Positions 14,365 to 18,067 of a stretch of 21,418 nt of DNA are shown piece by piece. A program made the position numbers and the translations under genes. This DNA comes from Candidatus Auribacterota bacterium (lineage in GTDB: Bacteria > Auribacterota > JAFGBW01). Position 1 is the first letter of the stretch. Every line of letters starts with the position of its first letter. The notes beneath the pieces were generated by a model. It was not told the DNA's origin. It worked only from the letters and a program-made list of their open reading frames with translations, and made no database searches. The stretch covers positions 1 to 21,418 of the forward strand of contig JAFGBW010000025.1 in the NCBI GenBank assembly GCA_016932965.1, given 5' to 3'.

Positions 14365-15117
14365 CTAACTATTTCCCTTTTTACCGATCCAATTGAGAAG
14401 GGTATTTAAAATCAAGCCTAATTCAAATAAAAGAATTAACGGGAAAGCCATGATGCATTGAGATACCGGATCCGGAGGAGTCAATATAGCGGCAATGATG
14501 AAACAGACCACCATCACATGCTTTCTGTAGTGTTTGATGATTTCAGCACGGATCAGACCGGTTTTGATGAGGCAAAGGACAATAAGGGGTGTTTGAAAAA
14601 TGCATGCAAAGATCAGAATAATGCTTTGAGTCAAATGGATTTGTTCCTTGAGAGAAACCGCCAGTTTGACAGGCAGTTCGGTTTCGATAAAAAACGGATT
14701 GGATACAGAAGAGTATTCCGCCAGGAATCTAAAGCCCGCCGGCATCAATAAAAAATAGGCGGTCAGGATCCCAAGATACAGGAAAAGAAGGCTGGAAAAG
14801 AAAACAACGGAAAAATATTTTTTTTCGCGCCCGTAAAGGGCTGGTTTGAGGAATGCCCATGCCTGCCAATACAGATAAGGAAATGTCAGAAAGATTGAAA
14901 AGAAAAACACGGTTTTTAAATGAATAAAAAATTTGTCTGTGAATTTCAACAGGATGATCCCCCCCCCTGTTTCCCTGATGATCGCATTGATCTGTATCAG
15001 ATAAACATTCAGGAGGTCGTCTTTAAAAAACCATAAGATGATAAAACAAACAGTAATAAAAAAGACCGAGCGGAGGATCCGACTCCTGAATTCTTCCAAA
15101 TGGTCGAAAAAATTCAT
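14365..15117 (-). CDS. tatC: Twin-arginine translocase subunit TatC
   Basis: TatC is the polytopic receptor of the Tat pathway. It binds RR signal peptides of folded, often cofactor-bearing, proteins. The 250 residues have six hydrophobic segments. Family landmarks are the N-terminal FFDHLEEFRSRI, the FLKPALYGREKK stretch after the second membrane segment, and LTPPDPVSQCIMAFPLILLFE before the last. The ATG overlaps the tatA stop as ATGA (15114-15117), so the two are translationally coupled. The protein is complete and ends at a TAG. It is the last gene of the minus-strand block that includes two likely Tat clients. Confidence 0.96.
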   Translation of the reverse strand: MNFFDHLEEFRSRILRSVFFITVCFIILWFFKDDLLNVYLIQINAIIRETGGGIILLKFTDKFFIHLKTVFFFSIFLTFPYLYWQAWAFLKPALYGREKKYFSVVFFSSLLFLYLGILTAYFLLMPAGFRFLAEYSSVSNPFFIETELPVKLAVSLKEQIHLTQSIILIFACIFQTPLIVLCLIKTGLIRAEIIKHYRKHVMVVCFIIAAILTPPDPVSQCIMAFPLILLFELGLILNTLLNWIGKKGNS

Positions 15118-15299
15118 TTTTTATCTTCTGATTTCTGTTTCGAATCCCCTTCTGAATCAGGACTGGAATTCAATTCTTTTTTAAAAATTCTTATCCCCTG
15201 CGCAATGGATCTGGCTATTTCCGGCAGGCTTTTGGCTCCGAAAAGGAGCAATATAACGATTCCAATGACGATCAGCTCTGAAGTTCCTATGCCAAACAT
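15114..15299 (-). CDS. tatA: Twin-arginine translocase subunit TatA
   Basis: This 61-residue protein has one N-terminal membrane segment (MFGIGTSELIVIGIVILLLF). The conserved FGAKSLPEIARS hinge and amphipathic helix follow, then an acidic/lysine tail. These are TatA/E features, and the shortness and the FGxxxLP motif favour TatA over TatB. It forms the translocation assembly recruited by TatC. GGGAGG (15307-15312 on the opposite strand) lies 7 nt before the ATG, a strong ribosome binding site. No tatB gene is adjacent, so this protein may serve both roles. Confidence 0.93.
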   Translation of the reverse strand: MFGIGTSELIVIGIVILLLFGAKSLPEIARSIAQGIRIFKKELNSSPDSEGDSKQKSEDKK

Positions 15300-15403: not shown

Positions 15404-16939
15404 TCAAAACGGAAAATCATCTCTGGCATTATAATTGACAGGTTGGTCTATTTTTTTTCTTATCAGGGCAGTCTCATGTATGGCATTTCCATTCACAAGG
15501 ATCGCTTTCTCAGGTAGAGCAGGACAGGCATACTGGCACGCCCCGCATCCGATGCAATAGGAATCATCCACAATCGGTATCATCAAACCGTTTTCAAAGG
15601 GAACCATACGGACTGCATGCGTGGGACAGATTTCCGCACAGGCGCCGCAGTCGGTTTTATTCGTAACCACAATACATTTTTCAGGATAAAAATAAGCCTT
15701 CCCCATTTGGACAGCCAATTTCTCTGATTTTGATATTTTTTCTATGGCGCCCGTAGGACAAATCAAAGAGCATTTGAAACATTCGTAGTTGCAGAAACTC
15801 CTGTTGTAATTCATCTTGGGCTGGAAAATGCCGTTAATTCCATAATCAAATAAGGCCGGTTCTAATACATTGGAAGGACAGATACCGATGCATAAATGAC
15901 AGGAGATGCAGTTTTGAGTCAAATGTTCCAGACTCCTGGAGCCCGGAGGAGACACCGGACTTTGTTTAACGGCAGAAAGCGAAGCAGCATGGGATTTGCC
16001 GGGTTTTAAAAAAAATAAAAACGAAGCCAAATTAAGAAGTACGGATTGAATAAAAAAACGCTTTCCGAGGCTGAAAGGAGCTTCATGAATGTTTTTTGGG
16101 GCCATTTTGTATTGAATACAATGACTGGGACACACTCTTAAGCAATTAAAACAGGAGATACATCTGGAATTGTCCGCTTCTTGTGTTAAAAGATCAATGC
16201 AGGATGCCTTACAGATTTGCACGCACTTTTTGCATTGGATACAGCGTTCCTTATCCAAAGATATTTTAAATAAGGCATGTCTGGAAATGAGTCCCAGAAG
16301 CGAACCAACGGGGCACAATGTGTTGCAGTAAAGCCTGCCCCAGCCTGCAGTCATGATGAGGAGCAGAAAAAAATACATGAGGGCAAACAGAAATGACGCT
16401 ATGTTTAACGTTGGATACTTGGTTTGAAACAGTAAATATATTTTATGGGTCTCCAGAAGCGAACCCAGTGCATTATTGATCCCGATCATCACGGGACGAA
16501 ACAAGGTGATCATGATTTTTCCGAAATCTGCAAAAGGATCCAATAAATTATAGATCAGCATGTTTGAAAATATCAATGCCCACAAAGCGATGATTAAGAA
16601 CACATACCTTATTCTGAACGGTGGCCGATACGTAAAGGTTCTTTTCTTAAAAAAAGATTCCAGTCTCAACAAGATGTCCTGAAGAATGCCTATCGGGCAG
16701 CAAATGGAGCAATAAATCCTTCCAAAAAGAAAAGTGATGATTAAAATCAAAAGAAAGCCCGATGACAAAAGAACGGCTGAATTCTTGAAATGAATAACAG
16801 AAGGCATGAATTGAAAAAAAAGAACAAAATCTTTTATCTTAAATACAAAAAATTCATAGAAATCAATAAAGAGAATAGAAAGGCATAAAAAAAAGAATAG
16901 CGCGCTTAAAACTCTGACAATTTTTAGATGCTTATTCAT
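15404..16939 (-). CDS. Fused NapH/NapG-like 4Fe-4S membrane protein with internal Tat-like signal
   Basis: Residues 1-290 resemble NapH: four or more membrane segments (about 8-26, 55-73, 112-130, 182-199), the C-x3-CP motifs GRIYCSICCP (73-82) and GRLYCNTLCP (201-210), and two 4Fe-4S motifs (C233/236/239/243 and C260/263/266/270). Residues 291-511 resemble NapG. KRFFIQSV (293-300) is followed by a hydrophobic segment to about 311 and KSHAAS. Four more clusters follow: C344/347/350/354; C383/387/390/394; C422/431/434/438, preceded by MGKAYFYPEKC as in NapG; and C462/465/468/472. NapH passes quinol electrons through the membrane to periplasmic NapG, normally a separate Tat-exported protein. 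Here both are in one chain, with KR in place of RR. No nitrate reductase gene is present, so the true acceptor is unknown. A polyferredoxin without export is the alternative. Confidence 0.85.
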   Translation of the reverse strand: MNKHLKIVRVLSALFFFLCLSILFIDFYEFFVFKIKDFVLFFQFMPSVIHFKNSAVLLSSGFLLILIITFLFGRIYCSICCPIGILQDILLRLESFFKKRTFTYRPPFRIRYVFLIIALWALIFSNMLIYNLLDPFADFGKIMITLFRPVMIGINNALGSLLETHKIYLLFQTKYPTLNIASFLFALMYFFLLLIMTAGWGRLYCNTLCPVGSLLGLISRHALFKISLDKERCIQCKKCVQICKASCIDLLTQEADNSRCISCFNCLRVCPSHCIQYKMAPKNIHEAPFSLGKRFFIQSVLLNLASFLFFLKPGKSHAASLSAVKQSPVSPPGSRSLEHLTQNCISCHLCIGICPSNVLEPALFDYGINGIFQPKMNYNRSFCNYECFKCSLICPTGAIEKISKSEKLAVQMGKAYFYPEKCIVVTNKTDCGACAEICPTHAVRMVPFENGLMIPIVDDSYCIGCGACQYACPALPEKAILVNGNAIHETALIRKKIDQPVNYNARDDFPF

Positions 16940-17143: not shown

Positions 17144-18067
17144 TTACATCTTAATCCGGCTGATGTTGAGATTATCCAGATTCATTACGCCGACACCCAT
17201 TTCATTGGCGATTTGAATATAAGGGATGTCCTGGGGTTCCGCACCGAATATTTTTGCGGCAGCGGCGTCTCCCGCAACCATATCGCGGGACAGGATCAAG
17301 GTTTTCAGAGTGGAAACATCGGATTCCGACCCCCCTCTTGGACCGTTTCTCATTAAAACCCTGTATGCATCAATCACATTCAAATCAGGTTTCTTGAAGA
17401 GGCAAAAATCAGCAATGCATTGATGGAGATCGTTCCGGTGCCAAAAATGGCGGTCCCAGACAATGCCCATCAAATTCTTCATCGCTATCGTCAATCTCGC
17501 TGACCCGTGATGTTTTAATACCGGCATATTGATAAAGACATCGGAATCCAGGATCAATTCATGCACAAGGGCATCTTTTAAAATTTTTGCACCGGGTATT
17601 TCAACCGGACGATAATATTTTTTATCATTAGCCGGAACGACATGTGCCCCTGCTTCTTTGGCCGCTTTTTCAATACCGCTGTTTCGATAGGTTGACTGCC
17701 AATGATCACAGGTGTTGTCAAAAACACTGACCTCTTTTGCACCGGCCTGAAAACAATGCTTAATGACTTGAGCAACCAGCAATGGATTGGTATTTCCCGC
17801 TTTTTCAGGAGAAACATCCCATCCCATATTGGGCTTGATCACGACCGTTTGATTTTTTTTAACAAAAGTCTTCATGCCGCCCAGTATTTTAATGGCCGCA
17901 TCAAACATCTGATCCGGTTCACCACCTTTAACCGCAACCACATCATACGGATTCACGGAGGAGTCTTCTTCCTGGGAATGAAGATTCCTCAGGGATTTAA
18001 AAGAAAACATGGATCCGTAAAACAACAGATAGCCTATGAGAGATTTCAGAAAATGCCTTCTGTCCAT
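17144..18067 (-). CDS. DUF362 protein with a twin-arginine signal
   Basis: The N-terminus MDRRHFLKSLIGYLLFYGSM is a textbook Tat signal: RR at 3-4 within D-R-R-H-F-L-K, then a hydrophobic stretch. The remaining 270 residues match DUF362: VVIKPNMGWD (75-84) near the start of the domain, then VSVFDNTCDHW, VFINMPVLKHHG (177-188), TIAMKNLMGIVWDRHFWHR and the closing DMVAGDAAAAKIFG. The family is often linked to iron-sulfur proteins, and many members carry a C-terminal ferredoxin domain. This one has none, and the neighbouring gene could supply the clusters. Its reaction is not established. GGAGG at 18073-18077 (opposite strand) lies 5 nt before the ATG. Export of a folded protein to the periplasm is the best inference. 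It lies 59 nt downstream of tRNA-Pro on the same strand. Confidence 0.9.
   Translation of the reverse strand: MDRRHFLKSLIGYLLFYGSMFSFKSLRNLHSQEEDSSVNPYDVVAVKGGEPDQMFDAAIKILGGMKTFVKKNQTVVIKPNMGWDVSPEKAGNTNPLLVAQVIKHCFQAGAKEVSVFDNTCDHWQSTYRNSGIEKAAKEAGAHVVPANDKKYYRPVEIPGAKILKDALVHELILDSDVFINMPVLKHHGSARLTIAMKNLMGIVWDRHFWHRNDLHQCIADFCLFKKPDLNVIDAYRVLMRNGPRGGSESDVSTLKTLILSRDMVAGDAAAAKIFGAEPQDIPYIQIANEMGVGVMNLDNLNISRIKM

Follow-up and report, generated by a model that had tools for sequence, protein, structure and literature searches.

A NapH-NapG-like polyferredoxin with a lysine-arginine Tat-like signal at its internal junction, encoded beside tatA, tatC and a DUF362 gene in Candidatus Auribacterota

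That the twin arginine of Tat signals is nearly invariant is one of the central facts about the pathway. In the stretch of DNA analysed here, called the window (21,418 nucleotides; Candidatus Auribacterota bacterium, contig JAFGBW010000025.1), a predicted membrane protein carries a Tat-like motif in the middle of its chain, with lysine at the place of the first arginine. The locus raises the questions whether such a motif can hand the second half of a membrane protein to the Tat pathway, and which partner this half would serve. The gene is part of a compact cluster on one strand, in the order DUF362 - polyferredoxin - tatA - tatC, and related clusters were found in other phyla too. The features discussed below are as follows.

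14365 to 15117, minus strand: TatC, 250 aa, the single copy detected in the genome (PF00902, 5e-56; TIGR00945, 157.2 bits against a cut-off of 132.7)
15114 to 15299, minus strand: TatA-like protein, 61 aa (open reading frame; its profile groups with TatA reading frames beside tatC in relatives)
15404 to 16939, minus strand: polytopic polyferredoxin (NapH-NapG-like fusion), 511 aa (open reading frame; two Fer4_5 plus Fer4 domains; NapH and MauM/NapG profiles below cut-off)
15470 to 15949, minus strand: residues 331-490, PPG linker plus the NapG-like part with four clusters (MauM/NapG profile match 318-482; invariant cysteines)
16007 to 16057, minus strand: helix 5, residues 295-311, marginally hydrophobic, with basic but no acidic residues behind it (AF2 helix 293-310; hydrophobicity scan)
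16058 to 16063, minus strand: K293-R294 (AAG CGT), the basic pair in the internal Tat-like motif; most homologues have RR here
16070 to 16939, minus strand: NapH-like part, residues 1-290, with four membrane helices, two CxxxCP and two 4Fe-4S motifs
17144 to 18067, minus strand: DUF362 protein with the N-terminal Tat-type signal MDRRHFLKS and a LarA N-domain fold (PF04015, 8e-53; AF2 pLDDT 92.6; VIA Z 18.9 to LarA)

The polyferredoxin gene starts with ATG, and Pfam assigns two Fer4_5 and several Fer4 domains to its product. A first reading of the DNA from sequence only had divided the protein into a NapH-like part of about 290 residues and a NapG-like part with four 4Fe-4S motifs, and both halves were borne out. 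The first contains, besides its membrane helices, the motifs C77-x3-C81-P and C205-x3-C209-P and two Cx2Cx2Cx3C motifs (233-243 and 260-270), and its best match to the NCBIfam NapH profile covers residues 184-278 (3e-24). It is joined via LGKRFFIQSVLLNLASFLFFLK to the second, which holds four clusters after the junction (C344-354, C383-394, C422 with C431-438, C462-472) and matches the MauM/NapG profile over residues 318-482 (5e-14). All motif cysteines are invariant in an alignment of 52 sequences. Neither profile cut-off is reached, with 85.8 bits against 213 for NapH (TIGR02163) and 52.5 bits against 178.9 for MauM/NapG (TIGR00397). The AlphaFold model is confident overall (pLDDT 88.9), with a helix of moderate confidence at 293-310 and a linker (315-323) below 50. 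Single-sequence and profile searches of solved structures returned ferredoxin pieces only, and Foldseek with the whole model gave matches only to ferredoxin domains, with no NapH fold among them. The protein is a diverged homologue of published NapH-NapG fusions.

Such polytopic polyferredoxins were described as NapH-NapG fusions by Tooke et al. in 2017 (PMC5449189), who had searched genomes for proteins in which a Tat motif precedes the final helix. In the PFD of the delta proteobacterium MLMS-1 (Q1NSB0), export of MBP and AmiA reporters placed after helix 5 needs Tat, and changing RR to KK abolishes export in E. coli. The handover from Sec to Tat was ascribed to the low hydrophobicity of helix 5 and to the positive charges behind it (PMC5449189). 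The switch from membrane insertion to Tat export, which the sequence-only reading had considered a notable topology, is very likely real, but it has been in the literature since 2017, reporter tests in a homologue included. The window protein resembles the MLMS-1 PFD as a NapH-NapG fusion with a Tat motif right before a marginally hydrophobic helix 5, with basic residues after this helix and four clusters outside. It differs in its pair, KR instead of RR, and in its gene cluster, which encodes TatA, TatC and DUF362, none of them mentioned in the parts of the paper cited. Polytopic actinobacterial Rieske proteins (Sco2149) and Sco3746 follow the same Sec-to-Tat handover logic (PMC5449189), although their redox domains are unrelated to the polyferredoxin.

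Both handover features are present in the window protein. Its helix 5 is clearly less hydrophobic than helices 1-4, and the 15 residues behind it include three basic and no acidic ones. Compared with helix 1, helix 5 also has the lower hydrophobicity in 100 of 108 homologues, the window protein included, on an approximate position-independent scale. The dual-targeting reading draws support from these two features of helix 5, which were named for release from Sec (PMC5449189), and by analogy with the MLMS-1 homologue, in which Tat dependence was demonstrated (PMC5449189), helix 5 of the window protein may depend on Tat as well. The predicted cytoplasmic loops are enriched in basic residues, which together with the reporter tests on the homologue (PMC5449189) supports the location of the NapG-like part outside the cytoplasm that had been proposed from the positive-inside rule.

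The junction of the window protein reads APFSLGKRFFIQSVLLNLASFLFFLKPGKSHAAS; a literal twin arginine before helix 5 is absent, the pair being KR at 293-294. A protein search at E 1e-35 or better gave polyferredoxin matches in 76 of 384 genomes, a search of genome contigs for relatives returned distant partial matches only, and a set of 110 loci was assembled from the 384-genome search, searches around the closest relatives and fetched neighbourhoods. In the aligned junction of these 110 homologues the pair is RR in 86, KR in 10, RK in 8, RA in 3 and another in 3; arginine at the second position (residue 294 in the window) is kept in 96, and PPG follows the junction in 108. The conserved position of the basic pair, the hydrophobic segment and PPG are more than a coincidence and support an internal Tat-like signal at the junction, as the first reading had suggested, and given that most homologues have RR, KR is a local variant. 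In a polyferredoxin tree calculated with the junction columns left out, KR is found in four unconnected positions (the window; L084 and L176-L179, which form a family group; L167-L169; L129). Two close relatives, L086 and L173, have the strongly degenerate junction KRKTIKKLA(FF) where their congener L174 has RRKTVKKLA, which is a recent loss of the first arginine.

It could be argued that KR is a decayed, non-working signal, that helix 5 is cytoplasmic or re-entrant, and that both ferredoxin parts form one cytoplasmic relay. The loss of export upon change of RR to KK in the homologue (PMC5449189) and very degenerate junctions in relatives, such as KRKTIKKLAFF in L086 and L173, point in this direction; according to a review, even the conservative Lys substitution is poorly tolerated in Tat signals (PMC7317946). 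However, the window protein still has R294 and an otherwise intact junction, KR has come up in some four lineages, usually next to a tatC gene, and the precedent drawn from TtrB is sound, as TtrB has a natural KR signal and SufI tolerates a change of either arginine to lysine (PMC1182353). We therefore regard a decayed signal as unlikely. A second alternative is suggested by KSHAAS, which stands behind helix 5 with roughly the spacing expected for signal peptidase: a cut at this AxA-like site would turn the fusion into the precursor of a free periplasmic NapG-like protein. The letters highlighted in the first reading are indeed there, but they are not informative: the stretch after helix 5 carries a strict AxA in only 25 of the 110 homologues, and a looser form in 73, while none of the set has given up the fusion. 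This makes cleavage quite improbable, and because the site is not conserved, helix 5 probably stays uncleaved as a membrane anchor. Hardly credible is an insertion of helix 5 by Sec as an ordinary helix with export of an unfolded NapG-like part and loading of its clusters outside, since the segment, although fairly rich in Phe and Leu, is clearly weaker than helices 1-4 on a hydrophobicity scale that is approximate, and we know of no 4Fe-4S loading system outside the cytoplasm; the homologue, moreover, is Tat-dependent (PMC5449189).

We favour, with a probability of roughly 0.68, a dual Sec-Tat membrane polyferredoxin that is exported by the TatA/TatC of its own cluster and wired to DUF362. 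Helices 1-4 would be inserted by Sec/SRP with the N-terminus inside, so that two 4Fe-4S clusters stay on the cytoplasmic side. Helix 5 would be too weakly hydrophobic, and the stretch behind it too basic, for commitment to Sec, and would instead act as a tethered internal Tat signal (SLGKRFFIQS). The four C-terminal clusters would be loaded in the cytoplasm before export, after which the cluster TatA/TatC would recognise KR and the next Phe and deliver the folded NapG-like part to the periplasm, helix 5 remaining as an uncleaved anchor. The finished protein would be a transmembrane electron carrier, like NapGH from quinol, to or from DUF362 and not a nitrate reductase. We infer that KR works with the window TatC; the partnership with DUF362 and the direction of electron flow are likewise putative.

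In cluster-motif order and in the architecture of both parts, the protein is similar to the NapG and NapH quinol dehydrogenase of E. coli and Wolinella. In contrast to these, it is a single chain, its profile scores are far under the cut-offs, and its genome has neither Nap nor a PF00384 enzyme. The molybdopterin oxidoreductase family PF00384 had no match in the window genome, which is 92.6% complete, and the polyferredoxin is therefore not part of a Nap system; the earlier remark that no nitrate reductase gene is visible holds genome-wide. The likely role of the polyferredoxin is to connect the quinone pool with a DUF362 partner in the periplasm by electron transfer, the DUF362 step being suggested by gene order. 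The most economical reading would be a NapGH-like transmembrane electron wire serving a periplasmic DUF362 oxidoreductase.

The DUF362 gene is located directly upstream of the polyferredoxin gene, and its product starts with MDRRHFLKSLIG, a standard Tat signal. DUF362 adjoins the polyferredoxin gene in 54 of the 77 loci in the first set examined, nearly always with a Tat signal; no DUF362 is nearby in the other 23, some of which are at contig ends. In some groups, Tat-exported Fe-S aldo/keto reductases take its place, and DUF6599 proteins are a further alternative neighbour. The window genome has three DUF362 genes. The profile for Tat signals (PF10518) was too weak for counting Tat substrates, as it gave the DUF362 protein of the window 13 bits, under the cut-off. 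Single-sequence and profile searches yielded no credible solved-structure match for DUF362. In the fold comparison, its model gave Z 18.9 against the N-terminal LarA domain, with an rmsd of 2.6 across 207 residues, a score well clear of the next unrelated entries; DUF362 and this domain both belong to Pfam clan CL0471 (PMC11770544). In contrast to the LarA family, however, the protein corresponds to about half of LarA and is predicted to be exported by Tat, and its genome lacks LarC. As LarC (PF01969) had no match in the window genome, a LarA-type nickel-pincer enzyme is unlikely here, and its absence from many other genomes with the polyferredoxin-DUF362 pair indicates that the nickel-pincer cofactor is no general requirement. 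We found no literature linking DUF362 with TatC or ferredoxin.

The tatA-like and tatC genes lie downstream of the polyferredoxin gene. A tatC gene on the same strand within 3 kb of the polyferredoxin gene occurs at 25 of the 110 loci, in the order DUF362-polyferredoxin-tatA-tatC or tatA-tatC-DUF362-polyferredoxin. It adjoins 20 of 24 non-RR polyferredoxins versus 5 of 86 with RR (Fisher 1e-13 without tree correction). After correction for the tree, about nine independent pairs were left, of which about four pointed in the same direction and none in the opposite one (median p 0.125). The association of non-RR signals with a neighbouring tatC is thus suggestive, though not significant after phylogenetic correction. 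Low G+C content was considered as a cause of Lys for Arg and rejected, as the linkage persists in loci below 45% GC (without tree correction). The TatC tree broadly parallels the polyferredoxin tree. Among the papers searched, none described the KR variant, a cluster of tatA, tatC and DUF362 with a polyferredoxin, or a loss of TatC Glu103 together with the second signal arginine; while the fusion is known, the altered export tag and its pairing with a dedicated exporter seem to be new.

The near-invariance of the twin arginine was explained by a cryo-EM structure from E. coli in 2026, in which the first signal arginine contacts E15 of TatC via water and the second forms a salt bridge with E103 (PMC13323110). 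In the window TatC, the equivalents E9 and E98 are both kept, and E15 and E103 equivalents are also kept in the TatC linked to KR polyferredoxins. A sister clade shows a different pattern (G001, a same-order relative of the window genome, and L186-L191, L194, L195 and L197). Its polyferredoxin motif is [ST]RKxF or TRAxF, its DUF362 signals are also [ST]RKxF where a readable start is present, and its linked TatC has Q, K, R, H, A, P or L instead of Glu at position 103. Given that E103 salt-bridges the second arginine (PMC13323110), a joint loss of both is as expected of a matched change. The association of the second arginine with E103 (Fisher 4e-8) has a p value that overstates the evidence, since essentially one clade is involved. 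There are exceptions: L192, L196 and L100 pair a TatC lacking E103 with an RR polyferredoxin, L100 being sister to G001 in the polyferredoxin tree and having V103 and the DUF362 signal SRINF. At the level of genomes, E103 is lost and RR kept in two (G563 and G557). In five clade genomes a second, unlinked TatC retains E103, mostly with Ala at the Glu15 position (L224, L220, L223, L212 and L226, versus the cluster TatC without Glu103 of L187, L188, L190, L191 and L197). A matched change of tag and receptor in this clade is, at the level of sequence, a lead that rests largely on one clade.

It is possible, if somewhat doubtful, that polyferredoxin, DUF362 and TatA/TatC form a co-inherited module whose dedicated TatC has a relaxed or shifted specificity, with a KR branch, including the window, that keeps Glu15 and Glu103 and an RK/RA branch in which mostly both substrates have changed alongside a TatC without Glu103. 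If true, tag and receptor would have changed to match each other in nature. The operons look like a natural experiment on the E. coli structure (PMC13323110): the first arginine is replaced by lysine with E15 and E103 kept, and in the sister clade the polyferredoxin, and usually DUF362 too, no longer has the second arginine, and the co-inherited TatC no longer has E103. Their chief value lies in the ready-made collection of natural non-RR substrates that they offer together with TatC proteins of their own, and they also point to a widespread, unexplored periplasmic electron-transfer system of polyferredoxin and DUF362.

Several variations of the locus were observed besides. Very divergent second TatCs without Glu15 and Glu103 occur in L229, L230, L233 and L234. 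One genome encodes two distinct polyferredoxins (L080 and L081), only one of which is adjoined by DUF362. DUF6599 (PF20244), a family whose function is not known, is represented by 18 reading frames in the locus set and recurs beside DUF362 and polyferredoxin (L032, L035, L045, L089, L090, L096, L104, L106 and others); it may be a third component. In one genus of the same phylum (L036, L037, L040-L043, L046 and L047), the polyferredoxin is shorter, with about 451 aa, and is followed by one or two aldo/keto reductases in place of DUF362, which have a Tat signal, are lipoprotein-like and contain 4Fe-4S domains.
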